Source: Limnoperna fortunei (taxonomy: Eukaryota > Mollusca > Bivalvia > Mytilida > Modiolidae). From it: 64,000 nt of DNA. Every line of letters starts with the position of its first letter. Position 1 is the first letter of the stretch. Under the pieces are notes generated by a model. It was not told the origin of the DNA. It saw only the letters and a program-made list of their open reading frames with translations, and ran no database searches. Below are positions 26,820 through 52,996 of the stretch, one piece after another. The position numbers and the translations under genes were made by a program. The stretch is taken from NCBI GenBank assembly GCA_944474755.1, contig OX104115.1, positions 67,308,993-67,372,992 of the forward strand. The letters are read 5' to 3'.

Positions 26820-28550
26820 GCTATCTCCATTGCATTTCCTTGTCACTGTCTAAATTCTGTATTAAAATTACCATACATAATTTTTTGTGACAGCATTAGC
26901 CATAACCTGAACAGTCGCTGAAAAGTACATTTTATTAATGAAATTAACAATCAATTGACACAGAAATGAATTTTTAAAGTGTCATTAATTAATTTATTGT
27001 CATGCTGAAGTGTTCATCCATTTCTGCATGCAATCGTTGTACAATTTCTTTAATTAACTGATCATAGACAAAGACTTTTCCTCACTGTTTCTGTGATTTA
27101 ATTGTGAATCTGAAGATTTGGGAAACCACAAAGTCTGATTGAAATACAACCAGATTTGAATACTTTACATTAATCTAAAACCCATTACGGAAATTGCTAA
27201 TTATTTGATTCCAATCAGATAATTATTCTCTTTTTTTTGGTATTTCTTTGAAATCTGTGGTTTTGGCATTTGTCATTTGTTGAGCAGATTCATTGTTGAT
27301 TAAAATGAATTCTGGAGTTCTTTTTTCTCACATCAATGCTAACTGGCTGCAATGCCAAATGTGATGAATCAGACAAGTTTGCCCAAGTGGATTTATTGTC
27401 TTATATTTATTTAGGCTGAGGCATCAGTTGTTTTATAACTGGACAGTGTTACTCATGTATGTTTGTATATCAGTAATTTTTTATTTTTTTAAAATAATTT
27501 TGATCTTTTGTACAATAATAGTTGTGTCCCCTTTTCATTTATATATATGTTTATGATCAAAGAGTTGCTTCCCCTACATATTTTGTTAAAAACTCTGCTA
27601 TGATAGTGATCATTATTTAGTCATATATCCTTCAATTCATTCTAGCTGTTTGTTTGCGCCTTAGCCGACAATTGTATTCAGTTGTTGTATTGTAATCAAT
27701 TACGAAATAACAATATTTTAATCTAAATGAAAAGATTAAACAGGCATTTCCAACGGAAATAAACATATGAAATTTCTCAGTAGAATTAATGATTTTTGCA
27801 ACTGATGAAATTGAGTGCATAAATTTCACATTTATAGGAAATGATTTGTTGCAAATTGACGTAAGGGGATTCTGACATTTTATTATATTAGATTATCTGA
27901 ATATCAGCGGATGTTCTTCTGCAGGGATTTACAATAAATATGTTATTTGGAAACATTACTCCTAATTTCAACTGTCAAGACCCTTTACTGAATTATTCTA
28001 CAATCAAACTTCCAAATTTTCATTTCCTTTCGCAGAGGAAATAAGAGTTTTACGTTAAAAATTATGACACCGTTATTTAGCTATATGGTCAATAATATTA
28101 TAACAAATGACAAATTATGATTACATATTAAATCCATTTTTCATTCGGAGCTGTAATTTAATAGGCAAAAATTGATAGAACTTTAATTCTATATTATATG
28201 TTGATTCTGTTCAATAAATGTCAGTAATGTCATTTGTATGATATTAACAGCTATTCAATAATAAATAATTTATATGGATTTAAACCATATTAAATTCGAA
28301 ATGAAACAATTCTTTTTACTTAGAGGTGCAATATGCAGATCAAACATTGTAAATTCCAAGATACATATGAATAGAAAAAAAGTTAATCACTGCATGAAAT
28401 TAATCTCATTCCTTGCATTGATTTCTGATAATGATAATAAAAATTTTGAATCTAGATTAAAAAACATACAGCTAATAATTTTATCAAAGCAATCTTATAA
28501 CATAACAAGATGGAGTTTATTTGTTCAGTTTTACAATTTACATCCTAGTG

Positions 28551-28960
28551 ACTGGTTTCTTCACAGCATTCCTGCTAATCAGCTACATCCCCAATGACTG
28601 GTTTCTTTCCAACATTCCAGCTTACCAGCTATATCCCCAATGACTGGTTTCTTCTCATCATTCCTGCTAACCAGATACATCCCCAATGACAGGGTTCTTC
28701 CCAGGATTCCAGGAAACCAGCTAAATCCCCAATCACTGGTTTCTTCCCAGCATTCCTGCTAACCAGCTACATCCCCAGTGACGGGTTTCTTTCCAGCATT
28801 CCAGCTTACCAGCTACATCCACAATGACTGGTTTTTTCTCATCATTCCTGCTAACCAGCTTCATCCCCAATGACTGGTTTCTTCCCAGCATTCCAGCTAA
28901 CCAGCTACATCCCCGAAGACTGGCTTTTTCTCAGCATTCAAGCTAACCAGCTACACAGGT
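28551..28960 (+). repeat. 46-bp tandem repeat, about nine units
   Basis: ACTGGTTTCTT..CAGCATTCC..CTAACCAGCTACATCCCCAATG repeats at 28551, 28597, 28643, 28689, 28735 and onward with an exact 46-bp period. Units differ by several substitutions, so the array is older than the 50-bp one. Confidence 0.9.
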
Positions 28961-29135: not shown

Positions 29136-31315
29136 TCCTTTTCTATAACCTATTGCCCCTTCCCTTTCCTACATTTAATACAATTATTTATAACACCATA
29201 GAGTGATGTTTCTAAATTAGCAAATTCATATACCATCTTCATCAACGGATGTTGAATTATGACATCATTGTACGATTTATCAGGTATCATCCTTGACAAG
29301 CATTGCACCTAATAACATAGGATTCAACAAAGTTTATTTGGCCAATTTCTTCAATTACAAGACTTGTCAGCCTGTCAAAATCCACGGTTCTTATGGATGA
29401 TTGACAATTTATTTCTTTGGAAATGTAATGCACCTGTAATCTCCTGTGCAATCGCCATGCGATGTCAGAAATATTATTGCAATGCACGAGAAAGGTTAAA
29501 ATAATTCTGTTGATATAAGTCGAGTTAGGAACCACTCACAAAATGTATACATGCAACTAAAACTCGATTAATTTACTTAGATTTGTTGTATTGATTCAAT
29601 GAGGCACTTGGCATAAATCAGAATTTAGGGAATTAAATAAATGTAATTTTATAGCAGTAAAGTATGTTAAAAACTTAAATATAAATTGAGTTAAAAATTA
29701 TTTAATTGAATTTAAATCTAAAGATATGCAGTACTTAAGCTTTTACTAAGTAATTGATTAATACAACATGATCAGCACTTCTCCAAATCCTTGTAATGGT
29801 TTGTAAAACAGTAATAAGTATTTAAAGTTTCTACCTGTGTGACATACCTTTCTTTTAAATATTTTGACATTTCCACTGCAGATTCTTACTCTAGTAGTAA
29901 AAGGTTATGAAATTTTATCATTTATGATGTCAGATTGGAGCCCCACATATCCACTTTAATTTTTTTAATTTAGGTTTGGAATGTTAAAGGCATTTGTTAA
30001 TACTTATTATAAGATGCTATTGCGTGGTTTTTTTTGGTAATTTTGTCATATATTTGTTTTTAGTTATCTGGCAAATTATTACACAATTACATTTTGTTTA
30101 ACCTGCATGTAATTCTTTAAAAAAAAATCAGTATAAAATAATATAAAAAATAGCTGATAATGCATTTACATATTTGACAAATATTGTAAGAAATATATAA
30201 GAAAATGATCAAAGGGGACATTCCTTCTGTCTGCATAATGTTTGAATTCATAAGAATTAGATCAAAAATGGTGTAATTAACTTAGAAGCAATAATAAAGA
30301 TTATTGTCAACGTTGTCTTGGAAAACATGATACGCTTCTTTGAAATAATTAATTTATGAGATACAGTGCTTTTTTACAATATTATCAATACAGGATTAAT
30401 AACTTTGAAATCAGAGAATTCTTAATTTAACTTAAATATCCATGTTTTCTGACAATGGTAGAAAAATCTATCTAGCCTGAAATAAGAGAATTTAGTTTAA
30501 TGTCAAATCCAAATCATTAGATAATACTATAGTAGAAATATTTATATCAAAAATAGAAAACATAAAATTTGATCGGGATAATTTCCTTAAGCATTGGGTG
30601 GATCATTTCCTAAAAAGACAGAAACAGATTTTATTGTTTCCATATCATTATTACATCAAAAAGAATTGATTTGTTTTAGGTAGTCTTTCAATTCTGTGAA
30701 ATTGACAAGGCAGTGAGACTTTTTTATGCTTATTTAAAATATGATTATCTATTAGTTTTGATTTTTGAAATTGAATTAATATGGAAAAAGGAAGTAATTT
30801 TGAGAAGGGGAATGGAAATTGAGGGATTTAATTAGTTTTAAATATGTAAACATTGCATTGGCAATCTTTGGAAAACAAAGTTTGTATACAAGTTTATTGC
30901 AGTTACTAAATCCATGAAATAGAGATGTCGGTTAAGCTTGAAAGATTATATATCAATTAGAAAAGTTATTAAATAAAAAAAGTGACTTAAGTATTTCTTC
31001 AAGTTAAACATGACATGTCAAAATTATCTAAATGTTTATTTCATTTCATGCATCTTAATTAAAAGTTTTTGCACTTGATTGCCACGGTTACCAGGGACAG
31101 AACAGCATGAAACCGTAAAAATAACACTTATCGCATGCTGCAGCAATGAAAATAAAGAAATAGAAAATATGTTGAAATCCACTTTTTTAATGAATTATTG
31201 TTTTTTTGTAACGTCATTTTTGAAAAGAGAAAATAAATTGCTTTCTAAAGCACAGCTATTTCACTTGGACCATATCAATAAAATGCAGAAATAATAGATA
31301 AATCTAAGGGATCAG

Positions 31316-31324
31316 CCCCTGCGA
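31316..31324 (+). repeat. Left terminal inverted repeat of the transposon
   Basis: CCCCTGCGA, the exact reverse complement of the right end. Both ends then continue with A/G-rich bases and reach an AATGTTCAAGAAC word within about 30 bp, so similarity extends inward with a small offset. Confidence 0.75.
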
Positions 31325-31680
31325 GAAGTTCAAGAAATGTTCAAGAACTATTCTAGAACCTGTTCTAGAACAGTTCATGAACGTTAAATGGCCCAATCAA
31401 GAACTAAAAAGTTCAAGAACAGTTCTTGAATTTCTAGAACCTAGTTCTTGAACATAACTTCTTGAACTAAATGTTCAAGAACTAGGTTCTAGAATTTCAA
31501 GAACTAGGTTCTAGAATTTCAAGAACTAGGTTCTAGAATTTCAAGAACTGTTCTTGAACTTTTTTGGTTCTTGTTCGGACCCTTTAACATTCATGAACAG
31601 GTTCTAGAATAGTTCTTGAACAGTTCTTCAAATGTTCTAGAACAATTCTTCAAATGTTCAAGAAGTTCTTGAAAACTTCT
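31325..31680. repeat. Left subterminal TTCWWGAA palindrome array
   Basis: About two dozen copies of GTTCAAGAAC, GTTCTAGAAC, GTTCTTGAAC or GTTCATGAAC in roughly 355 bp. The two central bases are nearly always A or T. Three exact 22-bp tandem units start at 31477, 31499 and 31521. Arrays like this are the protein-binding region in CACTA elements. TTCnnGAA is also the core of heat-shock elements, but the spacing between units here is irregular. Confidence 0.88.
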
Positions 31681-32119
31681 ATAGAAATTGAGAGTACTCA
31701 ATAAGTTTAAAATGCAAAGGTTATACATTAAGATAGTCAAAAACGAACAAACACAGAGAATAGCCCACTCGTAATGAATCAATGTACAAAGTAACAGTTT
31801 AAAAGTAAGACCCCTGTGACTGGAGTAATGTGAATACAATGAATTAGTTGTGATAATATGTGAGAAAAATTCACTTAATTCCCCAAACAGTAAGTAGATG
31901 TTAAAAAGGCCCGAAATTTAATCCCACCATATGAGACTAACAACTTTTGCTGCATACAATATTTCAGAACCCTACAATAATAGTCTCTGAGAAAGCTTTG
32001 ACGGAAATTTTGATCATTCGACGGACCGGCTAGTCAAAACATGTTGTTGCTTGGTGTAAATATGACACAAAATACCAATGAATGCTAATTTATTTTTGAA
32101 ATGTCAAATAGACATAATT
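31681..32119. other. Transposon left flank, 3' end of the BEN gene
   Basis: About 440 bp between the left array and the stop codon of the minus-strand gene. It contains the likely polyadenylation signal of that gene. I see nothing else. Confidence 0.6.
32089..32094 (-). promoter_or_regulatory. Candidate polyadenylation signal (AATAAA) of the BEN gene
   Basis: TTTATT on the + strand reads AATAAA on the - strand, 26 bp after the stop codon at 32120-32122. It is a canonical hexamer at a suitable position, although AT-rich sequence makes chance matches common. Confidence 0.5.
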
Positions 32120-32663
32120 CTATTGGCATTTTTTAAGATTTCTTCGAAGAATTTTTTGAATGTTTTCAAATTTCTTTATAATTTCATTGGTTTCAAAAGC
32201 GGTATGTTTGCAAACCACCATCTTCAATAATTCAAATTTTTCACTATTTAAAGCTGGTTTCACATTATCACCCGATTTTGCAGTTTTTTTCCCTGTTCTA
32301 CTACAATGAATTAACTCCTCATTTGTAAATAGTTTTGAACAAACGCATTTGAGTTTATTATTGTCACCATTCACATTTTTTATGCTTTGTTCCAACTCCT
32401 CAATAGTACATGTAATATCACGTGTATCTGTTTTTACACTCTGACTCTGTTCAGTTTCTACTTTCTCTTCTGTTTTGGTTTTTTCACTTAGCTCTGCAGT
32501 TTCAGTTACATGTATCTTCTTATTTTTCTCTGATATTGGTTTACTCTTTATCTTTTCTAATGGTTCACTCTTTATCTTCTCTAAAACAGCAATGCGTTCT
32601 TCCAACTTCTTATATTTTTTTTTTAATTTGGTTGTCTCTTCCTCAAGCCTGAGCAGTCTTTTT
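32120..32663 (-). CDS. BEN gene, exon 5 (coiled coil and BEN-like domain)
   Basis: Terminal exon, 544 nt. The acceptor is TTTCTTTGTAG|AAAAAG on the minus strand. It encodes residues 298-478: a Lys/Glu/Leu heptad-like helix, an acidic/Lys spacer with repeated EKIKS, then Cys-Val-Cys and the BEN-like block. The frame fits only when the 85-nt exon at 33532-33448 is included, which supports that exon. Confidence 0.8.
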
Positions 32664-35600
32664 CTACAAAGAAAATCATTTAGCAATAAACAAACTGTTT
32701 GATATCAGATACGTTATGACACATAGCAAAAAAAACAATCAGACTGGATAGCAGGTGTGAGCTACAGTGACACTTTTGTAGAGCTAAATGAGCTGAACAT
32801 TTAAGCAAGCAACAACTTTTCTCTACCTGCAAAATTCTAAACCCTATTTTTGACCTATAAGGGGTCATCTGACAACTTTGACCCAATGGAGACTTTTGCA
32901 TGCTGGAGAAGGCAGGTTGCCTCAGTTTTCCTCAATCTATTATACTTTTTGAACTATAATCTGACCCCCTCGTCTATTTTAAGCAATGGCGGCCATGTAT
33001 TTCGACGGAACAAAATTCGAAACACAAGTTTGGTGCAGACACCGTAAGGAACAACCATACCAAGTTTCAGAGGAAGTTTTTGAAAAGTTGTTTATAGACG
33101 ACTATTGACGCAAAGTGATGGCAATTAGCTCACATGTGAGCTAAAAATACATTTTCCAATAGCATGTCTTTCTATATGTGGATTGTGTCTTTCTGGTACA
33201 TATTCCATAATCTTTCGTTTTAATATTGATGGCAATGATATTGACAGGATGTTCTTCATATTCAATCTGTTTAACTTATAGCTTCACGTTTATTTACATT
33301 TATGTATATATTGACCTCACTTGGATACTCGAGTCTGGTTTTAATGATTGGTTTCAGTGGAGAAGATTGCTTTTAAATTTCATGTTTTATTTTTATTTTT
33401 AAAGTAGTCTACATTCTGAAATATTAAATGTTTATTTGTATGCTTACTGTGTTGATTCATCTGTAGATGAGACAGGACTACATGGATTACTGACTGACCT
33501 GCCAAGGTACATCTGGTGCTGAAGAAACTTTCCTGGAAGCATAACAAATTACTCTTTTACAACAATATATTTACAAGTCGACAAAAGACTAGTACAAACT
33601 CAGATAAAACATTGGCCTCACCGTCTGTGAAATAAAATCAAAGAAACAAGAGGCACCAATAGGGCATTCCAAAGTCATAAGTCAAATATACACGATATAA
33701 CAAAGACAAAACCGATAAACACAAAACGAAACAAGCACAAACAGAAAATACTAATAAAAATATCAAAATACAAAAATGCCTTTCACAGTATGCTAAGCAT
33801 ACCCCCACCAATAACAAAACAGGAAGTAGAAGACCGACTGACCTGGAAAGGGGAGGCACAGGACAAATCATCATGCTGAAGCTGTCTACCAAATTTGAAA
33901 TCAATCCCTTTAGTAGAAGCTGCAAAATTTGTTACGAAAAATTTCCAATTGTTGACCCTTAATAAAGTCGAAGTCGACTTGGAAAGGGGAAGCACAGTAC
34001 AACTCATTATGCTGAAGCTAAATTTGAAATCAATCCCAGCTGAGAAATTGTACCAGACGGACAAGGTGATTGCAATATAGCCCCCTCTCTCTTACGAGTG
34101 GGGGTATAATCATATCAAATACAAACATCTTATCCTTTGATGATCCACATAAACAATATGACATTCACATCGTTGCTGCAGATTTATTAGGACACAGTCT
34201 AGGACTTCCGAAATATTATGAAGTGGTCTTTTCTTGTTTTCTTAAAAAAGTGCTAAGGTCCACCAGAACCAGACAAATTTTCTGACTTGGCCCAATATTA
34301 TAAAAATAAACATAACATACCAAATTTACTTTTATCAGGGGTCCATTGTCTCTTCTCTGGTGAAGTGTCTTCTGAAAGTATAATTGTAAATACTTAATAA
34401 TATAGTCCATATAATACAAGAATGCAGATCATGTACAGTATAAACCACTTCCGTACACTACACATTATGTCTTTGGTGTTTGGTTGGGGAATTAATTGCT
34501 TGTACCATGGTAATATCAAGATGGCACCAGTTGAAGCAAAATAAAGAATAAGCACTGTGAAACTGGATAGTTTTATGACTTTAATGGTGGAACATGTTTG
34601 CGATGTTTTTTTAAATGTTTTTGTTATGCATTTTTCTTTTAAGAAAATAATATTTGCACAGAAATACTTTCCGATTTTGCTAGTGTTCCTGTTATATCGC
34701 AAAATTAGCGAAAATAAACCCTCGTGAAATTTATCCCTATGCGCTGAGTATGCCAAACATAAAAAACAAGGGGTTGCACTGTCGTGCTAAGCATACCCCC
34801 ACCTTAACCAATTACAAAACAGGAAGTAGATGACCGACTGACCTGAAAAGGAGAAACACAGGACAACTCATCATGCTGAAGCTGTCTACCAAATTTGAAA
34901 TCATTCCCCTTAGTAGAAGCTGATAAGGCCAAAACAAAATATATGTTTGTTTCCTGCTTCCTACTCTTGAAAATTAGGGTAGGTAGGTAGGAAATTTTTT
35001 TACAAAATTATTTTACATTGAGTCAATGGGGAAGCAATCTGTGCTTGTTCCAAAATGCCAATAAAAACTTTAGGGTAGGGCAAAAAAATAGGGTGGGTAG
35101 GTAGGGAAGCAGGAAACAGATATATATTTTTTTGGCCTAAATCTGTTACGAAAAATTTCCCATTGTTGGCCCTTAATAAAGTCTATGTCGACTCGAAAAA
35201 CAGGAAGTAGTCTGCCGACTGACCTGGAAAGAGCAGGCACGGTACAACTCGTCATGCTGAAGCTGTGTACATAATTTGAAATCAATCCCTTAAGTAGAAG
35301 CTGAGAAATTGTACCGGATGGACAGACAGACAAGGTAATTGCAATATAGCCCCCTCTCTTACGAGTGGGGGTATAATATGTTTGTTAGCCGTTTCCTGAC
35401 CCAGGGGTTCAAGTGTTGGGTCAGTAGATAGGAAAATTAATAATTTTTATTATTTAAAAATAAATTTTAAAGAACCAAAAAAAAATCTATACATTTTAAC
35501 GATTCTTGTAAACAAACTTTTCAGTCAGGCCATTTAAAACGGGTCGGTCAGCAAACGGCAAGCTAACAATATTTTAATTTTGGCCCTATTCCATTTACAT

Positions 35601-37776
35601 AAATACCTGAACTGCTGTCATGGCTCCTCTGTCTCTTCTTAGGCGTCCTCTCACTCTTCTTTGGTGACTTCTCAGGGGATCTTACTCTCTTCTTTGGTGA
35701 CTTTTCTGGGGACCTTAGTATCTTTTTTGGAGACTTCAGTATCTTTTTTGGTGACTTCAGTGTCTTTTTTGGTGACTTCAGTATCTTTTTTGGCGACTTC
35801 AGTTTATTACTTGATGACTTCTCTATGGACCTCGATCTCTTTTGTGACTTCTCTGGAGACCTTGATCTCTTTAGTGACTTCTCTGGGGACCTTGATCTCT
35901 TTGGGGACTTCTCTGGGGACCTTGATCTCTTTGGTGACTTCTCTGGGGACCTTGATCTCTTTGGTGACTTCTCTGGGGACCTTGATCTCTTTGGTGACTT
36001 CTCTGGGGACCTTGATCTCTTTGGTGACTTCTCTGGGGACCTTGATCTCTTTGGGGACTTCTCTGGGGACCTCGGTCTCTTCTTTGGTGACTTCTCTGGT
36101 GACCTATGTCTCTTCATAGGTGACTTCTCTGGGGGCTTATTGGGTGATGTATTTGGCATGTTCTCTGAAAGAATACATGTCATTTCATGTGAAAAACTGT
36201 ATATCTAACCTACCACGAACTTGCAGTTTATTTAAAACTCCATAGGCATATCAAAATTAGTTAAAGAAAGATCTGACTGAATTTGGCTGAACATATACAT
36301 ACATGTATCTGAACTTCTAATGCAAGTTCGTGTTAAAACCTTTTTGATTGGATAATGACTGCAGTAAAATGTAGGATTTACCTGCCGTAACTAAGGACAG
36401 TGGCCATATTGGAAATTCCATTACATTTCAATACTATTATTTCGAAAAAGAAGCAATTTATAAAAACGATCTGGATTCAAAACATCTTTTTATGTAAATT
36501 TATTTTGATTTGAAGCGTACAGTTTTTCTAAAAATGTGGAAAATTGCAGTTTAAGTTTTGCTGTCTTTTTTACCTTTTCACAGACTTTTTTGTTTTCACC
36601 GTTCCTTGTAAAAATTTTAACATTTAACATACGCATCCGTTTTGGCAACGTATCGTGATCCGGATGGGATTGTGAGCAAGTGGAATCGTGTCACCCCTAA
36701 TATACAATGTACATGCATGTATGCCCAAACCCTAGTAGGCAGGCAGAGTTCGAAATAACAGCCTGCCCGCCAGCCAGAGACTGGTAACGTTTGGGCAGGG
36801 CTGGCAAAAATTCATGAAAATTTGACTGGCTACATGTATATAGCAAAAGCAGGTAGAATTTCAATTCAGGGCTGGTAACTTTTTCAGCAAATTTCCTACC
36901 CTGAGGCAGGGCATAAAATTAGTTAATGCATAAACTTACCTCTATATAGACTGTCTGTGGTATCTTCAAGTAATGAAGTAATATTCTGGTCTAGCCACTG
37001 TTGCATCATTTTTTTTTCTGAAAAAATTATCTTGAATGTAAATGATGTACATGTATAATATAATACAGGACTGTGAGCATTTAACCTTTGGTCATGTTGA
37101 AGACTGCTGGTGGTCTTCCATTGTGGATTTTAAAAATTTACCGACAGGTACATTTTGTAATGTGTAAGAGTACTTTTATTCCAGTGTGTAAAAAATTATT
37201 TGCAAACAAGGAAATGTGTCAAAATGACACTGATGCCCCGCTGGCAAATAAAATAAAACTGTTATTTTTCCCCCATTCCCTTCAAATTAAATAGTCCGTC
37301 CCTTAGTCTTATTTGGACAATCATGATCAGTGAATCACATAAAAAGTCATTGGAAATTCAACCTGAACTGGAGAGAAGAAATCGTTGGCTTTAAAATGAG
37401 TTATAGCAGAAAATTAGCAAAATAATCGGCAATATAACGAGAACTGTTTTTGAGGAAAAAGTGGCGAGATCTACTCTGTCCTTGTCCAGTATCGATTTGG
37501 GGAGGGGACTTTTAGAGGCAGGTGAGCTATTTATTTTACCCCGGTAAGATTTGTTCTCCAAAATTTTAGAAGAAATAGCCTCGATACTTCAAAAAACATT
37601 TTACCTCCTATCCTCAGGATCCGGAACTTCCATAGTCCAGGATAGCCACTATACCGTGCAATACCCTCCGTTCCGACTTTATAATTGGCATCTTTTGGTT
37701 CGACCACCCATTTGAGGTTGTGAACGGACAACCTGTTTCCATCGTTCGTCCACCTCATTACTGCAAATTCTGCCAT
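32120..37776 (-). CDS. Transposon-encoded BEN-domain protein, 478 aa, 5 exons
   Basis: Minus-strand gene assembled from exons 37776-37605, 37017-36940, 36164-35607, 33532-33448 and 32663-32120. Every border is GT/AG, phases agree at all four joins, and the total of 1437 nt is exactly 479 codons with stop. Residues 1-83 are a conserved-looking N-terminal region (RYSGYPGLWKFRIL, then QQWLDQNITSLLEDTTDSLY). Residues 84-269 are SPEKSPKRSR-type basic repeats. A short Ser/Pro linker is followed by a coiled coil at about 299-335 and a BEN-like domain at about 405-472 (LFTNEELIHCS..GK, KPALNSEKFELLKMVV, ending in basic residues). BEN domains bind DNA, often palindromes, and act in chromatin. I infer an accessory DNA-binding factor for this element. 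The start ATG is in the divergent promoter region. The BEN call is by pattern only, without a profile search. Confidence 0.8.
33448..33532 (-). CDS. BEN gene, exon 4 (small linker exon)
   Basis: An 85-nt exon, too short to stand out as a long open frame. The acceptor is ATGCTTCCAG|GAAAG and the donor CACA|GTAAGC. It reads GKFLQHQMYLGRSVSNPCSP then VSSTDEST and restores the reading frame between exons 3 and 5. Predicted from splice sites and phase. Confidence 0.7.
33650..33765. repeat. Dispersed A-rich repeat, copy 1
   Basis: The stretch from AACAAGAGGCACCAATAGGG to the end of ACCGATAAACACAAAACGAA recurs with few changes at 44045-44135, also inside the transposon, and more weakly near 41330-41420. 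It is a short interspersed repeat of unknown class. Confidence 0.55.
33799..34107. mobile_element. ATACCCCCAC-ended element, copy 1 (nested)
   Basis: Starts ATACCCCCAC and ends GTGGGGGTAT, a perfect 10-bp terminal inverted repeat, about 309 bp apart. It lies inside BEN-gene intron 3. The internal sequence (AACAGGAAGTAGAAGACCGA, later ATCATGCTGAAGCTGTCTAC) is shared with copy 2. It has no coding capacity, so it behaves as a MITE-like repeat. Confidence 0.65.
34793..35374. mobile_element. ATACCCCCAC-ended element, copy 2 (nested, itself interrupted)
   Basis: Same inverted termini and internal blocks as copy 1, but 582 bp long because of an insertion at 34926-35138. It lies inside the same intron of the BEN gene. 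Confidence 0.65.
34926..35138. mobile_element. Palindromic insertion inside ATACCCCCAC copy 2
   Basis: Begins AGGCCAAAAC and ends TTTTTTGGCCT. The inverted similarity runs inward over about 35 bp (TTTCCTGCTTCC against GGAAGCAGGAAA). The uninterrupted copy 1 reads straight through this point, which marks this as a later insertion. Target duplication is unclear (TA or TAA). Confidence 0.6.
35607..36164 (-). CDS. BEN gene, exon 3 (SPEKSPKRSR repeat exon)
   Basis: A 558-nt exon coding residues 84-269. The acceptor is TTCTTTCAG|AGAAC and the donor TCAG|GTATTT. It encodes tandem copies of SPEKSPKRSR from a near-perfect 30-bp DNA repeat (about nine units, 35820-36090), flanked by older KSPKKIL repeats of 21-24 bp. 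The product is extremely basic with many Ser-Pro sites, like RS or histone-tail-like segments, so nuclear or chromatin association regulated by phosphorylation is plausible (inference). Confidence 0.78.
36940..37017 (-). CDS. BEN gene, exon 2
   Basis: A 78-nt exon. The acceptor is TTTTTTCAG|AAAAAA and the donor AGAG|GTAAGT on the minus strand. It reads KKMMQQWLDQNITSLLEDTT then DSLYR without stops and keeps phase 1 on both sides. Confidence 0.75.
37605..37776 (-). CDS. BEN gene, exon 1
   Basis: First coding exon, 172 nt, starting MAEFAVMRWTNDGNRLSVHN and containing ARYSGYPGLWKFRILRIG. The donor is GGAG|GTAAAA. The A at -3 and G at +4 around the ATG suit initiation. The aromatic/Gly-rich block looks like a compact folded module, but I do not recognise it with certainty. 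Confidence 0.75.
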
Positions 37777-38097
37777 TTTCCAAGAACCGCGCGCTTTCAG
37801 TCAGCATCCGAGAACGAGGATTTTGATTGGTTCAAATACAGATCCAGATGCTGTTTCGTCCATTCTGATTGGTCAATTTTATTTCTCGCAAAATGGTAAG
37901 TTCGTGATTAAAATATTTCTTTACAATAATTTAATATTTGCAAATTATAACATCATATTGTGTAAAAAAGGTAAAAAAATAATAATGAATATTTAACTAT
38001 AAGTTGGTTTAGAATGTTTAGTTCGTTATGATTGTGAAAATGCTTGTGGTGTCATTTCGTCCAGTGTCCAGGTTTTAGCATGTGTATTGTTCACAAG
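37777..38097. promoter_or_regulatory. Divergent promoter between the two transposon genes
   Basis: The 321 bp between the two opposed start codons are more GC- and CpG-rich than the flanks (for example CCGCGCGC at 37787-37794). They contain two inverted CCAAT boxes, GATTGG at 37825-37830 and 37867-37872, typical of NF-Y driven bidirectional promoters. A perfect donor-like ATG|GTAAGT at 37893-37900 on the + strand may end a non-coding first exon of the transposase transcript. No TATA box is evident. Confidence 0.55.
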
Positions 38098-38239
38098 ATG
38101 GCCGCCTCCAGTAACAAATCGGAGAATATAAAAAAAATAATTGTTGAAGGCGTAACAAAGTTTGAATGCCTTAGATGTAACAGACAATTAAGCACAATGC
38201 AACGCATTATGCATCATCTACATTCCATTCACGACATGT
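38098..38239 (+). CDS. Transposase exon 1 (N-terminal zinc finger)
   Basis: A 142-nt exon with start context AAGATGGCC. It encodes MAASSNKSENIKKIIVEGVT followed by the C-X2-C/His zinc-finger-like segment. The donor T|GTTAGT is non-optimal but acceptable, and without splicing the frame stops at once (TAG at 38242). Confidence 0.7.
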
Positions 38240-41200
38240 GTTAGTAGTTCAAAACTCATATTGTTTCTTGTCATAACGGCGTTCTCGCCATCCGATTTTT
38301 AAAAAGATTTCTTCATTCTTGTGCAAAATCGGGACCAAAACTGGTTGGATGGGTGTAACCCTTTATCTAAGCGATGGTAGGCGTGTTAAGACAAACAGTG
38401 TGTTGTTTGTCTTAGGGGACGACCATTTAACTTTGGGGGTGGGGATGGTAGTTTTTTGTAAAAAAATAATCTGGCCTGGAAAAAATTGTAAAATAAATAA
38501 TCTGGCCTCTGTTTTCAAGAAAATTAATAATCTGTCCCAAGATCCTTGCTCAATTAAGTATATTGTTTGTAAAAAATAAATATTCTTGTCCTGTACATGT
38601 AGCGGCAAAAAATAAATATTCTGGCCCGCAAAATTTGAAAATAAATAATCTGTCTCAACCGAAACCATAGATCTGTATATTAAATAGATTTGCGAAATCT
38701 CACAATATCTCATGCAAATAAACGAGATTTCGTACAAAATAAACAATTTGAAAAGTACAACTGTATACTGTTTTATCTCAAAAACCATAAAAGATTTTTA
38801 CATGATTCTTTTTTACAGCCATCCTTAAATGTTTTGAGATTCTACATGTGTTAAAATAACTGTTATAACATTTGGCATTTTAGAGAAGTATCAAAAGAGC
38901 CCACACTACCCTAGTTTTCATGAAAATACAATATTTTACAAAATTTCCGTAAAGTTTTCACTTTAAATTGTCACAAAAAGTTTATTTCTCAACCAAATTA
39001 AATGAAATTTTCACACAGATATTCCTTAATCTGTTCTCTGTTTAATGCAATTTATTCTGATAAATTCCATAGAAAGACATAAAAGTAGTTCAAAAAATAA
39101 ACCAACTCTCATTTATCAACCAGTGATATTTTCACACATATACTGAACAATTAACAAGTTGCTAATCTATTTAATATACAGGTCTATGCCGAAACTGCCA
39201 GACTCCCCTCAGAATCAAATCATTTCTGTCTTGGGCCCATTTTTTTTTACCTTAAATCAATCAGAGAGCAACATTGTGACTTTATCGTTGCTTAGTGAAA
39301 AAAAAATTATAAAAACTTTTAGGGTAGGCACCATGTACAACCGAAATTAATATTATACTTTATACATGTTATACATGTATGTACTACGGATCCCAATAAA
39401 TTTGTGTTTTTCTTGTATATTTTCCTATCAGCTGTTTTGACACAAAATTCATATAGTGCATCAGGATCTTAGTCTTCATCAAAACCTCTTCTCGAAACAA
39501 TATCAACAAATATTAAAAACTCCACAGTTTACTCAATATTTCAGAAATTCCATCCAATGTTTGAACGAATGACAGACATTTTATGAAATTATTATACTGC
39601 ATAGTGTTAGGTATCTTAACGAAATCTGGATGCACCATGCAAGTACTTAAAGTGAAAACAAAATGTTATTTCTCGGGGACCCGTCACCGTTGTACATAAT
39701 TTAGCACATTTTTGATTTCGGTTGTACAGGGTGGTGGCGGTAAAAAGTAGATAACGTCCGTGACAGTAAACCCCCCCCTTTTTGGGGGCCTTACACTGTA
39801 CCACCATTCTGTTTCAAGAAATTTTATTGCAGTAATTATATGTTTGAGTTGTTTCAACATTTTTTTAATTGTTAATTCTAGCACCTGTCAAAAGAGTAAA
39901 AAAACTGTATGTAGACAATGATGATTTGGAAGTACCAAGACGTACTAAAAACAGATGGAAAAAGAAACGAGAAAATGAAATGGAGACACTATCTTCACAG
40001 ACACCTTTTACATATTCATCACAAGAGGATGATTTAGGTAAGAGTATGACATGTGAAGACACACTAACATGAAGCACTGAAGCAAATATATCCAAACTTT
40101 TCACAGGAATGATATAAGGATGGGGTTCTCACTATTTTTTTAACACAAAATTCAAGGGTTTTTCAAGGACTTTTTAAGGGTATTGAGGTCATTTTCAAGG
40201 ATTACAATAGTCTGCAAAAATTTAAAAAATCCAATATTTTTCAGCCTTTTTTTATCAAATGGTCAACCAATCTGCATATTACAAAATTCCAGGGTTTTTC
40301 AAGGATATTTGATAAAATTCAAGGATTTTTCCAGATTTTTTAACATTGAAATGAAATTCAAGGACTTTTCCAGGTTTCCTTGAAATCTAGGATGGCGTGG
40401 GAACCCTGTAAGGAAGATAGCTCATATCATTCAGAGGGGGGACAACATATTAATCTTCTCTGAAGCTATTAAAGAGGATTTCTCCAAACTTAACAGGAAG
40501 TGCCCTAAAAGTTCATTTTAATGTTTTTTTTCTTTTCATTATTAGAGACTGGAGATGTGTCAACAGAGAATATACAGAATGAACCTGATCATTGTAATGA
40601 ATTGTCACTTCGAACCTTGTATGATGGTGAAACAGACACAGAGATTTCAGGATCATGTGAACAGCCAACTATTTTGCAATCCTCAAGTTCAATGGACTTG
40701 TCAGGGGAATCACTCAGTAGTTCTTGCAGTACTAATTCCTTGACAGATTCATCCGATGCTGAATTTTCATCTGGAACTGACATTTCAAGTGATACTGACA
40801 CTTCATATGATACTGACACTTTATCTGATACAGAATTAAGTTCTTCATCGGAAGGACATGGAACAGAAGCTAACTCTGAGGAAACAAACTCTGCATTTTT
40901 TCTCACAAATGAATTTGAATCTCTCAAGATTATTTCATGTTTCCGCAGACACAACCTGACCACTTCTGCCTCTAAGGATATTATCGATACAATGAAAACA
41001 ATTTTCACAGACTCTGAAAAACATAATATTTTAAATTTTGACTATTTGATGTCATTCATCCAGAAATACCCAATCATTGAAGTTCATTATTGTGAAATTT
41101 GTTTTGAGGTTTTCCCAGACAATCTTGCTGAATTGCATTGTGGAACAGAGAACTGCAACGGTCGTAGATTTGATAGGGATGGTCAGCCAAGAAAATGCTT

Positions 41201-43943
41201 TGTATTTGCAGACTTACAAAAGCAGCTAGCTGATCTATTACAATCTCCAGGTACAATAATATAATTCAAGAAATAACATTCCCTAGAAGCAATGAGGCAT
41301 CCGAATATCATACATGTAAGTCCGAAATTTCAAAGACAAAACCAGAAAACAAAAAAGACAAAGGCAACACAAAGAAACAAACAACAAAAAAAGCCAACTG
41401 AGATACAACTGGCAACACAAACTCAAGTCGTAACAAGAGTGAACTCAGGTGCTCCAGAAGAGTGAGCGGTTCCTGCCTGCTAAAGCACACCAGTTATGTT
41501 ACCAATCGTTCATTCAGCAAGTCAAATCCAGTGAAGAAAAAAAATACAACAAAGCCCTATGACAATCCAACATCTACACTCATCTGAGAGATAGAAATCT
41601 CATATTTGTCTACGAGCTCAGAAACTGCAAATGACATTCACTATATATTTACCATATACATGTATCTTATATAATTAACTAGGGATTTTTAGTTTGCCAC
41701 AATAAAGTTGAGGTAGATCTATTGCAGTATCCTTGGTGTTCACGTGCATGTCTGTTCGCATCCCTCTGGTTAAGTTTTAGGTACATTGTATAAGTAAGCT
41801 TTTTCTCAGCAACTATAAGTAGTAGGATGTTGTAACTTTGTATACTGATGCAACTTGGAGAGTAGAACAGCGTCCATGCAAAAGTAGGTCACTCTGATCT
41901 ATATTTTACACATGAGTGAACTTGGTTAAATTTTAGGTGCATATCTGAGTAACTATATGTGGTATTGTAGGAAGTTTTTGCCTCGTATGCTCCATTTCTC
42001 TAGTATGACTGCTTTAATTAATTGTCTTTTTCTGTACCATACCCGGTAGTCATATTTTTACAGTGTACTGTACTATTGACTACATGTATAATGCTTCCAT
42101 GAATTGAGAACTTTTTTTTACAGGTGTGATTGATGATATTAAAAAGCAGATCAGGTTAATGCAGGAAAGATGGCGACAAAATGAAAATACCCTCACTGAC
42201 TTAACAGATGGAAAAGCTTATCGAAGTATAATTGAAGAATGTGAGGGATTTGATGGCCTCTACTTAACTGCTTTACTAAACACTGATGGTGTAAATTTAT
42301 ATTCTTCGTCGAAAGTTGAGCTGTGGCCAGTCTTTCTGGCCTTAAATGAACTTAACCCCAAAGCCAGATTTTCAAGAGATAATCTACTATTAGTTGGAAT
42401 ATGGCAAGGGAAGGGTAAGCCCCCCTTCAAATCTTACATAAAAAGTCTAAGTGTACAACTGAACAAATTGCTAAGAGATGGAATTCAAATATCTGTTGAT
42501 GGGAGCGCTATCAATGTGAAATTGCGAGTTACTTGTGGCATCTTTGATTTACCAGCAAAGGCAGCAATCCTTAATATGATGTACTTTAATGGTAAAAATG
42601 CATGTATTACATGTGAGGAGGAGGGAAAAACAGTAAAACAGGGAAAAGGGACTGCAAGATGTTTTCCATATAGAAATGGCCAGGTTGTTATGCGATCACA
42701 CATGAATGTTTTGGATTGCATGGAAAACGGAACAATTAAAAAACCTGTCAAAGGATTTAAAGGAATTTCAGGACTTACATTTTTAGATTCCTTTAACCTT
42801 GTAGACGGCATAATTCCTGACTATATGCATGGGGTTCTTTTAGGAATAACCAGTATGCTATTGGCAAAGTGGTTTTCTCCGACTAACGGAGGCAAAGATT
42901 TTTTTATAGGTAAGAATTTGAAAAAGATTTCAAGTCGTCTGCAGCACATTAAACCACCATCCAGCATAGAAAGACTACCCCGTGACCTTGAAAAACACTA
43001 CAAATCATTAAAAGCGACTGAATTACAGGCTTTTCTGCTTTACTATGGGATTCCATGTTTAATTGGCATATTGCCCGATATTTTTCTAAATCACTACAGC
43101 TACCTATCTGAGGCCATTTATATCTTGCTTGGTGACAACATAACAGTTAATAAATTAGAGAGAGCAGAAAGTTTATTAACAAAGTTTTATGAATCATTTA
43201 CTGACCTTTACGGCCCAGGAAGCTGTGGGCTAAACATACACAATACATGCAGTCACTTGGTTCATTATGTCAAATTATGGGGACCACTTTGGGCATGGAG
43301 TTGCTTTGGTTTTGAGGATAACAATGCAAATCTTCTTCAATCTGTACATGGAACAGGAGTTGTTACCAAACAAGTAATGTTGTGCAAGCAAGTAGAGTCT
43401 ACCCTACGCAGAAAAAGTCTTAGTGTTAATGAATCTAGAATCTGGAAGATTACATATACAGCTCAAAACTGTGAGGTCTGTGGAAAGTTGATGTCTTTTG
43501 ATAATTTGGAAGGCTATCATATAAATCCAAATTTACTTGAAATGCTTTCTGTTGACAATGCTCAAGATGGTATCAAAATAATTGGCAGAATAAGTGTTAA
43601 AGGTCAGCAATTCGCCTCATCAATCTACAAACGTATGAAAAAGCGTATTTGTAGTTACGTATTATATGATTCTACTTTGATTGGATGTTTGAAGTATTTT
43701 GTGCTTGCTGTTTCTTCAAATGTTGTGTATGCTGTTATAGAAAAATATGAAGTAGCTCATCATTCAACAATTTTGGATCTTGAAGGTGGTAAACAAATAA
43801 TTCCAGTCCAAAATATAGGGACAGAAGACATAAGGCCTGCTGATAAATTATCAGAAACTCTTGTTTATGTAAAAACCTGTCATGAAGTTGAAGACTGTGT
43901 TGTAATGATGCCCAGTCGTCATGGACATGCAATCTTCAAATGA
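38098..43943 (+). CDS. CACTA/EnSpm-type (tnp2-like) transposase, 940 aa, 4 exons
   Basis: Assembled from exons 38098-38239, 39882-40037, 40546-41250 and 42124-43943. All have GT/AG borders (first donor GTTAGT), phase 1 at each join, and 2823 nt equals 941 codons with stop. Residues 1-47 hold a zinc-finger-like C-X2-C...H..H motif (FECLRCNRQL...HHLHSIH). Residues 48-99 are a basic nuclear-signal-like region. Residues 151-211 are Ser/Asp-rich and acidic. Cysteines 282, 285, 298 and 303 form a second zinc ribbon (HYCEICFE...CGTENCNG). From 335 on is the tnp2-like core. Candidate catalytic acids are Asp389 (NTDGVNLYSS), Asp476 (GIFDLPAK) and Glu732 (GFEDNNAN). Cys495/Cys498 and PDYMHG at about 566-571 are also family-like. 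The protein would cut and join the element's ends. An in-frame ATG at 38080 could add six residues. Catalytic assignments are inference. Confidence 0.85.
38666..39188. mobile_element. 523-bp MITE-like element in transposase intron 1
   Basis: Starts CATAGATCTGTATATTAAAT and ends with its complement; the outer 30 bp match at 27 positions. It is flanked by the exact 7-bp duplication CCGAAAC (38659-38665 and 39189-39195). No coding capacity is seen. It sits between exons 1 and 2 of the transposase gene, so it is removed by splicing. The long perfect duplication and conserved ends point to a fairly recent insertion. A 7-bp duplication does not fit CACTA (2-3 bp); it is nearest to hAT-like (8 bp) or other 7-9 bp families. 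Confidence 0.75.
39882..40037 (+). CDS. Transposase exon 2 (basic region)
   Basis: A 156-nt exon. The acceptor is GTTAATTCTAG|CACC and the donor TTAG|GTAAGA. It encodes PVKRVKKLYVDNDDLEVPRR followed by TKNRWKKKRENEME, a likely nuclear localisation or DNA-contact region. Confidence 0.75.
40140..40395. repeat. TTCAAGG(A/G)TTTTTC repeat block
   Basis: Transposase intron 2 contains at least five copies of a word close to TTCAAGGACTTTTCCAGG, irregularly spaced. It is simple, degenerate repetition, distinct from the TTCWWGAA terminal arrays. Confidence 0.5.
40546..41250 (+). CDS. Transposase exon 3 (acidic region and zinc ribbon)
   Basis: A 705-nt exon. The acceptor is CATTATTAG|AGAC and the donor CCAG|GTACAA. 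It carries the Ser/Asp/Glu-rich stretch and the four-cysteine HYCEIC...CGTENC module, ending FVFADLQKQLADLLQSPG, which typically precedes the tnp2 core. Confidence 0.82.
42124..43943 (+). CDS. Transposase exon 4 (tnp2-like catalytic core)
   Basis: An 1820-nt terminal exon. The acceptor is TTTTTTTACAG|GTGT. It encodes residues 335-940 without interruption: the helical ERWRQNENTLTDLTDGK lead, DGVNLYSS and ELWPVFLALNELNPKARFSR, then GIWQGKGKPPF. Further along are the CITCEEEG zinc pair, PDYMHGVLLG and CFGFEDNNANLLQSVHGT. The C-terminal 200 residues, with another C-X2-C (CEVCGK), are less conserved and of unknown role. Confidence 0.9.
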
Positions 43944-44754
43944 GTATGATACATGTAAATTGTATTTAAACTGTTATTTAATCATGTTAATACCCCTTAT
44001 TTACAAAAATTTTACTGGTGTTACTATGTTACATTAATTGAACTCAAGAAAGAAGCAAGAGGTACCAATATGGCATTCCAAAGCCAAAAGTCCAATATAA
44101 CAAAGGCAAAACCGATAAACACAAAACGAAAAATATTATTCATTTCTTATTAATACATGATGTTATTATTCATTGTAATGGTTATTTATAATAATATAAC
44201 AATAGAGACGAAGGATTTTATCTAGAATGCAATCCCAAACAGAAGATTTCGATATCTTTCCTAGAGTTTTGGTTGTTTAAATATGATGGGGAGACATATT
44301 GTTTTTGTTGTTTCTGTCTGTCCATCATAAAGTTTGTGGACGCAACTCCTTTAAAACTACTGGACAGAATTTCACAAAACTTGGCATGTAGGTTGAGTAC
44401 ACTATATGCATACTACCAGGAAATTTTGATCCATCACATTTTGTGGGAGTTATGGCCCTTTGAACTTATAAAATTTGCTGAAAATCACTATTTTCATCTT
44501 GTGGACACAACTCCTCTGAAACTACTGGACAGAATTTCATGAAAACTTAGCATGTAGGTTAGTAACCTCATATATAGTTGTACATACAGTCATGACAGTG
44601 GTAATATATATATACAAATATTTATGAGGCCGGGGGGAAACATCATTTTTGTAGGCAAAAACAAACTTTAATTTTGAGCTGAATTTTGCCAGAATTTCTA
44701 TTTTTGTCTGAATGTTTTGTGTGTGATTTATTAAAACAAATGTATCTAATTCAT
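43944..44754. other. Transposon right flank after the transposase gene
   Basis: About 800 bp containing the second A-rich repeat copy (44045-44135). A diverged pair of segments near 44338-44385 and 44500-44550 (GGAC.CAACTCCT..AAACTACTGGACAGAATTTCA) follows. No gene is seen; an 89-codon open frame across that pair is a product of the repeat. Confidence 0.5.
44045..44135. repeat. Dispersed A-rich repeat, copy 2
   Basis: Shares GGCATTCCAAAG, CAAAACCGATAAACACAAAA and neighbouring words with the copy at 33650-33765, in the same orientation. Confidence 0.55.
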
Positions 44755-45197
44755 GAACTTGAGTTCTAAAATTTGTATTTTAGTGAGGAGATCTGTTCTA
44801 GAACCCTGGTTCAAGAACTTTTTGACTAATGAGTAATCAGTTGAATGAATCATGTTCTAGAACTAAGTTCTGGAAATATGAGTTCTAGAACCCTGGTTCA
44901 AGAATTCTGTAATTTGAGTTCTTGAATGGGTCATGTTCTAGAACTAAAGTTCTTGAAATTTGAGTTCTAGAACCCTGGTTCAAGAACTCTGTAATATGAG
45001 TTCTTGAAATGGTAATGTTCTAGAACTAAAGTTCTTGAAATGGTAATGTTCTAGAACTAAAGTTCTTGAAATTTGAGTTCTAGAACCCTGGTTCTAGAAC
45101 TTTTTGAAGGGAGTTCTAGAACAGTTCTTGCAGTTCAAGAATAGTTCAAGAAGTTCAAGAGAATTTCTTGAACTCCATATATGTTCTTGAACATTTT
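44755..45197. repeat. Right subterminal TTCWWGAA palindrome array
   Basis: Mirror of the left array, with about two dozen TTCTAGAA / TTCAAGAA / TTCTTGAA words in about 440 bp. Here they are organised in a higher-order unit beginning GAGTTCTAGAACCCTGG at 44880, 44962 and 45075 (82 bp, then 113 bp because a 31-bp sub-unit is duplicated). Confidence 0.88.
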
Positions 45198-45206
45198 TCG
45201 CAGGGG
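45198..45206 (-). repeat. Right terminal inverted repeat of the transposon
   Basis: TCGCAGGGG, the complement of the left terminus, followed by AG on the host side as at the left end. Confidence 0.75.
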
Positions 45207-45208
45207 AG

Positions 45209-46600
45209 GCTTGTCATTGTGAAAAAGATAGGGGGAAAATTACCAAAGCTGTGTTTGGCATCATATTGAGGCATTATGAAGGTGTTATGCCTTCTATTAT
45301 GCAAAAATAAAAGAAGGATAAAAAATTATGTTTTGCAATCAAAACAATTAATGCAATTAATTTGGTTAGCAAAGCATAAAGGTTATGCTTTAAAATTCTT
45401 TAGTTCCGATTCATTAACAATCATGTTCCACCAAATTGGAAATTGGATTACGGTGAAATGCATTTGTTGGATTTCAATTAAATTTAATTCCATAGCTTAT
45501 ACTGAAAGAGATTTATAAAAAAAAATTTCCGAACAAATAACTTTAGTTTTAAATAAAGTTTATAGGGATAAACTAAAAAATCATTTGGTTTAGTTCTTCT
45601 CAGGTTGTATAAGGGATTTCCCCCCGTGTACCTCAATAATCGTCAATTTCTGTAATAGAGAATTATATTTGTCATAACACATGTTTTGTGATTGGATCCT
45701 CATCATAATTCAGGATAACGTTTCTCCCGTCGTGGACAGATAATAGTTATATTGTATCAATCGTAAAAATGACAATTCAATCAATAAATAGTTTACTAAC
45801 TAAGTTTGTAGATTTAATAAAAAGGGAAATAAATATCGGCTGGATCAATTCATATGAAATTATTGCATTATGAATGTATTGGATTTTGACTTTTTCTCAA
45901 ATAACAATTGGAGAGAGATCAAATTTATCAAGGAACACCTTACTTTAACGCGATTGTATTTATTTATTTACCCCGAAGAGGTCTTCAGTTGATATCTTAG
46001 GATAAAACGCAGGGTTTATTTAAAATGCATTGTCACTGATCTTAGATGACCAGGTTAGCAATATTGAAATCTCAATTTTACTCTTATCACCCAAAGAGTG
46101 TTTTCAAATTACAGTTTGGGATTTAAAAGATTGACTGTTTTATTTATGACATCCAGAAGTATACATTTGTATAGTGAAATTCATTTTAAAATATGTGTTG
46201 AGATAAACAGAAGAATGCCACTGTCAATCTTCTCAGTATATTGTTTGGTACAGAAACTTATAAAGTAGCATTAGTGTTTTGATAGTATAGATGATACCCT
46301 GGTCAAAGATTTTACTTTCCATACATTTTATGGGACTGGTTATAACCTTTTTTTATACAGATATCAACCTTGTATTTTGGTTATAAAAAATGTTACCCAT
46401 ATAGCAGCATGTTGTTTTATTTTATTGTTTTTTTCCAACACTTACAGCCATTTTTTACCTATATCTTGATTCCAATTATCATTGAAGTGAGAGTACCCAG
46501 TAAAAGCCCTTGACATTAGGGTTGAAAAACTGACAATCTGTGTCAAATAATGTTGGAATCAAACATACCCTGTTGTAAGCACCCTAAGGTCATCTATTTT
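45209..46600. other. Intron 2 sequence between transposon and 50-bp array
   Basis: AT-rich sequence with no gene or repeat that I can name. Confidence 0.5.
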
Positions 46601-47065
46601 GTTGTCTGTAACACATTAGACATTAGAATTTTTGTTGTCCCATTTATTTTGTTGTCTATAACACAGTAGACATTGGGATTTTTGTTGTCCCATTTATTTT
46701 GTTGTCTATAACACAGTAGACATTGGGATTTTTGTTGTCCCATTTACATTGTTGTCTATAACACAGTAGACATTGGGATTTTTGTTGTCCCATTTACATT
46801 GTTGTCTATAACACAGTAGACATTGGGATTTTTGTTGTCCCATTTACATTGTTGTCTATAACACAGTAGACATTGGGATTTTTGTTGTCCCATTTACATT
46901 GTTGTCTATAACACAGTAGACATTGGGATTTTTGTTGTCCCATTTACATTGTTGTCTATAACACAGTAGACATTGGGATTTTTGTTGTCCCATTTACATT
47001 GTTGTCTATAACACAGTAGACATTGGGATTTTTGTTGTCCCATTTACATTGTTGTCTTTAACACA
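46601..47065 (+). repeat. 50-bp tandem repeat, 9 units plus a partial
   Basis: Unit GTTGTCTATAACACAGTAGA, then CATTGGGATTTTTGTTGTCC and a 10-bp tail, repeated from 46601 to 47050. Units 1-2 end in CATTTATTTT (unit 1 also has CACATTAGA and CATTAGAATT). Units 4-9 are essentially identical. The last partial unit diverges (GTTGTCTTTA). Confidence 0.92.
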
Positions 47066-47998: not shown

Positions 47999-49090
47999 GT
48001 CTCGCCTGCGACGAAAGTCGCTGGAGGCGAGACATATGTATGGGAATCCAGCAGCGGCTGCGGCGGCGTAAACACATCTTGCTGCATATATTTGTAAGCC
48101 CAAGCCCTAGGTCCATCAAATTTGGTACAGAGGTAGCTTATGATGAGTACTTGCCAGTCAGTCACCTGTCACCTGACCTTGACCTCAATTTCACGGTCCA
48201 GTGACTACGTTAAAGTTTTTGGGTTACGACAGTTCCTCTGTTACCACGCATGGTTGGATGACAATATTTGGTATATAGGTTGCTGATGACTAGTACATGA
48301 CTGTCTGGTAGGTGTCACCTGACCTTGACCTCAATTTCACGGTCCAGTGACTACGTTAAAGTTTTTGGGTTACGGCAGTTCCTCTGTTACCAAGCATGTT
48401 AGGATGACAATATTTGGTATATAGGTTGCTGATGACTAGTACATGACTGTCTGGTAGGTGTCACCTGACCTTGACCTCAATTTCACGGTCCAGCGACTAT
48501 GTTAAAGTTTTTGGGTTACGACAGTTCCTCTGTAACCACGCATGGTAGGATGACAATATTTGGTATATAAGTTGCTGATGACTAGTACATGACTGTCTGG
48601 TAAGTGTCACCTGACCTTGACCTCAATTTCACGGTCCAGCGACTACGTTAAAGTTTTTGTGTTACTGCAGTTTCTCTGTAACTATGCATGGTAGGATGAC
48701 AATATTTAGTATATAGGTTGCTGATGAATAGTACATGACTGTCTGGTAGGTGCCACCTGACCTTGACCTCAATTTAACGGTCCAGCGACTACATTAAAGT
48801 TTTTGGGTTACTGCTGTTCCCCTGTAACCAAGCATGGTAGGATGACAATATTTGGTATATAGGTTGCTGATGAATAGTACATTACTGTCTGGTAGGTGTC
48901 ACCTGACCTGGACCTCAATTTCACGGTCCAGCGACTACGTTAAAGTTTTTGTATTAGGACAGTTCCTCTGTAACTATGCATGGTATGGTGACAATATTTG
49001 GTATACAGGCCGCTGCTGATATTTAATGCTATTTACATAATGCTTATGACGAAATTTATTTTCGTTACTGATGCGGAATGCAGGCGAGAC
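47999..49090 (+). mobile_element. HINE/Helentron-like non-autonomous element with internal satellite
   Basis: Begins GTCTCGCCTGC and ends GCAGGCGAGAC, a perfect 11-bp inverted terminus, in T-rich flanks. The left end folds: GTCTCGCC pairs with GGCGAGAC at 48025-48032 around an inner GCGAC-GAAA-GTCGC hairpin. The centre is six 146-bp tandem repeats. Inverted ends, a terminal hairpin and a central satellite are the plan of Helentron-associated elements, including mollusc pearl-like repeats. No coding capacity is seen; the open frame over the left end is repeat-derived. Class assignment is inference from architecture. Confidence 0.65.
48171..49015 (+). repeat. 146-bp tandem repeat, six units
   Basis: The word ACCTGACCTTGACCTCAATT recurs at 48171, 48317, 48463, 48609, 48755 and 48901, exactly 146 bp apart each time. 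The units are similar throughout (ACGGTCCAG.GACTAC, GATGACAATATTTGGTATA) and the last is truncated. It is contained in the element at 47999-49090. Confidence 0.95.
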
Positions 49091-52500: not shown

Positions 52501-52996
52501 CCACTCTGTGTACACGCAACTTTTGGAGATAAGTTTACTGGTAATATGTCCACTCTGTGTACACGCAACTTTTGGAGATAAGTTTACTGGTAATATGTCC
52601 ACAATTAGTGTCCAATCTGTGTACACGCTACTTTTGGAGATAGTTTACTGGTAATATGTCCACTCTGTGTACACGCAACTTTTGGAGATAAGTTTACTGG
52701 TAATATGTCCACAACTAGTGTCCACTCTGTGTACACGCAACTTTTGGAGATAAGTTTACTGGTAATATGTCCACAATTAGTGTCCACTCTGTGTACACGC
52801 AACTTTGGGAGATAAGTTTACTGGTAATATGTCCACAATTAGTGTCCGCTGTGGACAGTTCATGCTTTTAAAAAATCTGCCTTGCAATTGAAAAATTGCT
52901 GAAAGTAGTAATAAGTCATCTAGTTCTTTCATAATTTTTAAGGAATTATCAGTTGTTAACAGGCTGTTTATAGCATTGTTTACATGTTTTTTCCAG
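49575..52996 (+). other. dach: dach intron 3 (about 3.4 kb)
   Basis: Intron with GTAATG donor and TTTTTTCCAG acceptor. It contains a diverged direct duplication of roughly 105-bp spacing near 50085-50255 (GCAGACATTT...GAGTTATGTTGAGG). A 49/62-bp tandem array at 52450-52857 ends only about 140 bp before the exon 4 acceptor. No gene is seen. Confidence 0.8.
52450..52857 (+). repeat. 49/62-bp composite tandem repeat, seven units
   Basis: The core GTCCACTCTGTGTACACGCA plus ACTTTTGGAGATAAG and TTTACTGGTAATAT has a 49-bp period at 52450, 52499 and 52548. Some later units carry a 12-13 bp spacer (CCACAATTAGT), giving 61-62 bp. It lies just before the dach exon 4 acceptor. Confidence 0.9.

Follow-up and report, generated by a model that had tools for sequence, protein, structure and literature searches.

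Is the 13,891-bp segment at positions 31316-45206 of a 64-kb window from the bivalve Limnoperna fortunei (contig OX104115.1; the window is the whole stretch of DNA analysed) a complete transposon, and how might its two divergent genes move it? A sequence-only reading had described it as a single CACTA-like element with two divergent genes, lying inside dachshund. With a probability of roughly 0.7, we regard it as a structurally complete, potentially autonomous cut-and-paste transposon of the TRC/EnSpm type with a proposed two-protein mechanism.

The segment is one bounded unit, and its ends carry the following features:

31314-31315, no strand: left copy of the target site duplication, AG (flank sequence)
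31316-31324, + strand: left terminal inverted repeat, 9 bp, perfect, CCCCTGCGA (unique in the window)
31329-31673, no strand: left subterminal array, 24 TTCNNGAA palindromes (site count, shuffles)
44750-45191, no strand: right subterminal array of 24 TTCNNGAA palindromes, partly arranged as tandem units of 82-113 bp (site count, shuffles)
45198-45206, - strand: right terminal inverted repeat, TCGCAGGGG (reverse complement of the left end)
45207-45208, no strand: right copy of the target site duplication, AG (flank sequence)

The left and right termini aligned as a perfect 9-bp inverted match, and within the 64 kb CCCCTGCGA occurred once (at 31316) and TCGCAGGGG once (45198-45206). The flanks are laid out as AG / CCCC...GGGG / AG; as a 2-bp AG duplication is expected in 1/16 of cases by chance, it has modest weight as a target site duplication. 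The complete 13.9-kb element with matching ends at 31316 and 45206 that had been proposed was thus found again, and we hold with high confidence that this is a real element with sound boundaries. The CACTA label fitted less well: there is one bounded CACTA-group element with intact frames, but its termini are CCC (they start CCCCTGCGA) and not CACTA. Because of the CCC ends, the 2-bp duplication and a Transposase_21 domain (below), the element is better placed with the animal TRC elements within the CACTA/EnSpm group.

Dense TTCNNGAA palindromes lie inside both ends, where the earlier reading had placed subterminal arrays. There were 24 in 31316-31700, 24 in 44700-45206 and 29 across the rest of the window, far above the counts in 300 dinucleotide shuffles per array (mean 0.56 on the left and 0.52 on the right, maximum 4). 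The 10-bp form GTTCNNGAAC made up 22 of the 48 sites (9 left, 13 right) and was found zero times elsewhere in the window. Steps from site to site were 9-15 bp in 19/23 cases on the left and 11-22 bp in 21/23 on the right. TTCNNGAA forms part of the heat-shock element, and the arrays could be read as heat-shock elements giving a stress response. We consider this highly improbable, and largely ruled it out, since the GAAnnTTC neighbour spacing was missing from the arrays (0 and 0) and the three-unit element was in neither.

The transposase gene is encoded by four exons:

38098-38239, + strand: exon 1, with a C2H2-like finger (motif near the N-terminus of homologues P0008, P0030, P0037, P0049, P0060 and P0115)
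39882-40037, + strand: exon 2 (spliced frame, homologues)
40546-41250, + strand: exon 3 (spliced frame, homologues)
42124-43943, + strand: exon 4 with stop; Transposase_21/DUF1258, predicted RAG1/Transib-like core and C-terminal BAH-like barrel

The frame is unbroken over 940 codons plus stop, in agreement with the four exons and 941 codons with stop reported earlier, and homologues extend over every join (among 120 homologues listed, joins 1-2, 2-3 and 3-4 were covered by 6, 23 and 49 respectively). The Transposase_21 domain scored 38.9 bits in Pfam against a cut-off of 28.6, while NCBIfam gave nothing exceeding its cut-off. The CMC signature comprises DDE with C(2)C and H(3-4)H between the second D and E (PMC12730594; this and all papers cited below by PMC number are drawn on in excerpt). 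All seven residues are kept here, and they were present in 67/70 aligned rows. The candidate catalytic glutamate is E397 of exon 4 (E732 of the protein), conserved in 70/70 rows; E299 of exon 4, also 70/70, was dropped because the CMC definition has H(3-4)H preceding the last E. The strict pattern of motif I of DeMarco 2006 was unmatched; by eye it is one position off, with DG...Y...WP present. For box A, [LVI]-D-x-[LM]-H-x3-L-G, DYMHGVLLG was seen, but P precedes it instead of L/V/I.

By sequence, the single match to a solved structure was a designed protein (E 0.14). The predicted structure supports a resemblance of the transposase core to RAG1/Transib and of its C-terminus to a BAH domain, the predicted C-terminal part, residues 447-592 of exon 4, having a barrel-shaped BAH-like fold. 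This BAH-like region was covered by 70/70 aligned rows. The Pfam BAH profile gave zero matches on the C-terminal part of the window's transposase, and BAH was absent among the 25 of 46 Pfam families shown for 43 homologue rows. One homologue, P0078 from the Antarctic icefish Chaenocephalus aceratus, had 49% identity to the transposase over 82% of the query and was placed nearer in the tree than the Saccostrea and Mytilus copies; from these sequences, horizontal transfer or deep family mixing is possible.

Gene 2 runs in the opposite direction, towards the left end:

37777-38097, no strand: 321 bp between the divergent start codons, presumed bidirectional promoter (position only)
37605-37776, - strand: exon 1, start codon 37776 (79% identity to P0121)
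36940-37017, - strand: exon 2 (homologue, splice frame)
35607-36164, - strand: exon 3, encoding repeats of the SPEKSPKR type (tandem repeat of 30 bp in the DNA)
34321-34371, - strand: exon 4, 51 nt (84% identity to P0121)
33448-33532, - strand: exon 5, 85 nt (tblastn with P0121, 87.5% identity; frame, splice sites)
32120-32663, - strand: exon 6 with stop, coiled coil and likely BEN domain (Pfam PF10523, fold, P0121-P0123)

Our model has six exons encoding 495 amino acids plus stop, with GT-AG at all junctions, and a Tegillarca granosa protein aligns through all six exons, the 51-nt exon included. Five exons and 479 codons had been given for this gene; the complete open frame was right, but the homologue gives six exons and 495 amino acids. 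Gene 2 has 496 codons with the 51-nt exon (34371-34321) and 479 without it, both in frame. Since its omission yields exactly 479 codons, this exon seems to have been left out of the earlier model, although a genuine transcript skipping it may exist. That both spliced frames close exactly was likewise right, as both are open, but it is weak evidence alone: 60 splice combinations for the transposase and 1632 for gene 2 also stayed open in our scans. The rule that different splicing would defeat the single-element model asked too much: gene 2 is spliced differently from that reading, and the element stands. The ratio of observed to expected CpG in 37777-38097 was 1.24, high for the element, yet matched by 300/3184 windows, and a CpG-island promoter was given no weight. 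Searches for viral relatives of either gene gave pattern-scan candidates in IMG/VR, none of which was confirmed by tblastn. Among named organisms, the nearest relatives of both genes point to a molluscan host, perhaps a bivalve.

Gene 2 protein likely ends in a BEN domain, a point absent from the earlier reading. The BEN profile PF10523 scored 23.5 bits with exon 6 alone (cut-off 23.2) and 21.8 bits, below the cut-off, with the whole protein, and the best structural matches of the predicted C-terminal fold were BEN domains. Relatives of gene 2 were much rarer than those of the transposase: three were found, one of them annotated in Tegillarca granosa as KUTeg_014528, on a contig of 74.5 kb. 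This scarcity, and the fact that BEN proteins are host chromatin factors, would suit a BEN gene that this copy took up from its host rather than a standing component of the family. We consider capture quite unlikely: gene 2 lies between the ends, divergent and with intact frame and splice sites, and the protein of the Tegillarca relative extends over all six exons, though both observations are compatible with capture all the same.

Because certain BEN domains recognise short palindromic sites in dimeric form, we propose gene 2 as the TnpA-like array binder of the element. The BEN domain of Insv binds CCAATTGG as a dimer; Insv also has a coiled coil and forms multimers, and these multimers could bridge distant sites (PMC6317261). 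The BEN domains of NAC2 and BANP, according to the literature excerpts, do not bind palindromes. In plants, TnpA binds subterminal repeats, and the protein itself is dissimilar between elements (PMC2613891). Dimers of gene 2 protein would occupy the TTCNNGAA palindromes near either end, and its coiled coil would form oligomers bringing the ends together in a TnpA-like manner. Cleavage by the transposase at the CCCC termini would be the next step, probably through RAG/Transib-like chemistry; insertion would take place with a 2-bp stagger, and the BAH-like domain, judged from its predicted fold, may steer insertion to marked chromatin. Array binding by gene 2 and chromatin targeting through the BAH-like domain are both offered as open proposals.

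The arrays might instead be bound by the transposase's own N-terminal finger, or by another part of it, with gene 2 countering silencing or repressing the element. The finger is encoded in exon 1, where its Pfam score was under the cut-off, and was found near the N-terminus in 6/120 listed homologues, many of the others being without N-terminal exons. In gene 2 protein, the SPEKSPKR-rich middle could bind chromatin unspecifically, and the rarity of gene 2 relatives also fits this division of labour. Set against it are the preference of some BEN domains for short palindromes and the plant CACTA elements, for which binding of the subterminal repeats by a second protein is described or presumed (PMC2613891). 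On balance we judge binding by the transposase to be an unlikely alternative to binding by gene 2.

The age of the copy bears on its mobility. Repeats are nested in its introns:

33780-34115, no strand: miniature inverted-repeat transposable element (MITE)-like repeat nested in a gene 2 intron (self-BLAST, alignment)
34760-34960 and 35160-35385, no strand: related MITE-like units (self-BLAST, alignment)

BLAST pieces of the three units were 71-89% identical to each other, and their ends by eye are ATACCCCCAC / GTGGGGGTATA-like. The ratio of observed to expected CpG was 0.37 and 0.50 in two element exons, compared to 0.71 in one dachshund exon. These nested repeats and the CpG depletion weigh toward an older copy, and together with the borderline BEN profile, which limits the BEN assignment, they count against the reading that we favour. 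The earlier statement that intact frames are unlikely for an old copy was therefore not established. An old, silenced and immobile copy, with frames surviving by chance, is nevertheless improbable in our estimation: its 9-bp ends are perfect with a matching duplication, all ten exons of both genes are without stop or frameshift, and the seven signature residues are retained. A separate nested repeat pair was also observed at 33640-33731 and 44049-44131 (~83-92 bp, 83% alike).

The dachshund setting and the other features of the window are as follows:

6306-6832, + strand: dachshund DHD exon (PF02437, 2.2e-39)
~19820-19938, + strand: second dachshund exon, which we take to be such from its GRPPKR motif
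28549-28955: tandem array, 46-bp unit x8.8, outside the element
46599-47065: tandem array, 50-bp unit x9.3, 98% matches, outside the element
48167-49009: tandem array, 146-bp unit x5.8, outside the element
52448-52847: tandem array, 49-62-110 bp family, outside the element

The two dachshund exons are separated by a ~13-kb intron, and the element starts >11 kb downstream of the nearest identified one. A position downstream of two dachshund exons is likely; that the element lies in an intron is something we infer, since a motif search of the window for later dachshund exons came up empty. Large elements are not unusual in large introns far from exons, and the location was judged accordingly, contrary to the earlier opinion. 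No structured RNAs at the gathering threshold and no tRNA genes (ARAGORN) were found in the window, and three further open reading frames in it had no Pfam family above cut-off.

The founding study of the animal CACTA group named a TnpA-like DNA-binding candidate without detectable relatives and awaiting experimental verification (PMC1636069). No later settlement of the identity of the animal TnpA-like partner was found in the literature searched. With a BEN-type protein encoded next to palindrome arrays, this question becomes directly testable by binding assay. If true, a BAH-like reader in the transposase would offer a way of targeting chromatin comparable to the PHD finger of RAG2. Animal TRCs in general might be two-protein machines, in which a RAG1-like transposase with a BAH reader chooses chromatin and BEN dimers coat the arrays and pair termini that lie 13 kb from each other, and BEN factors may originate or recurrently reside in DNA transposons; this generalisation is doubtful. 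DUF4806 was reportedly treated as a BEN subtype by Pan et al. in 2023. It is given as such in PMC11075544, and a table that also covers transposase domains counts it 69 and 54 times in two genomes of Hydra, against 0-6 in its other cnidarians (PMC7642931). The Hydra copies could be transposon-borne BEN genes.

Among known systems, Transib, RAG1 and ProtoRAG share with this element the predicted fold of the transposase core and the C(2)C...H(3-4)H layout, RAG1/Transib being about 10-12% identical to it in structural alignments. Their termini and partner differ, and no RAG2-like gene was recognised. Drosophila Insv/Elba and vertebrate BEND, NACC and BANP share the likely BEN domain of gene 2 protein, whereas the BEN gene here sits inside a DNA transposon and its target site is putative. 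In the literature searched (mostly titles and abstract openings, with Repbase and subscription papers outside), including the excerpts of PMC5704228 and PMC11075544, no BEN gene was described as part of a DNA transposon. A search linking BAH domains to transposases, CACTA or EnSpm listed 15 of 427 papers, none of which names the BAH domain. A survey of bivalve repeats found CMC in all genomes analysed, yet two CMC transposons in its curated library (PMC10294476). The plant CACTA elements En/Spm, Tam1 and Tgmt* are likewise large, with subterminal repeat arrays and two functions, a transposase and a (presumed) array-binding protein (PMC2613891). By contrast, they have CACTA ends, with a 3-bp duplication in Tgmt*, a single transcription unit makes both products in Spm and Tgmt*, compared to two divergent genes here, and the excerpts of that paper describe no BEN protein for them. 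Closest are the TRC elements (SmTRC1 of Schistosoma and those of Tribolium and Aedes), which share the CCC termini, 2-bp duplication, Transposase_21, the D-x-[LM]-H-x3-L-G part of box A and CxxC (PMC1636069); a Hydra TRC also has CCC ends and a 2-bp target site duplication (PMC4298943). The presumed TnpA analogue of SmTRC1 is an alternative-splicing product for which its authors found no relatives (PMC1636069). The TRCs of that study measure about 4.5, 5.2 and 9.2 kb versus 13.9 kb here and, unlike them, the Limnoperna element carries palindrome arrays and a BEN-like gene that is separate and divergently oriented. So far as the literature was searched, a BEN-type gene beside palindrome arrays, together with a BAH-like transposase tail, is new.
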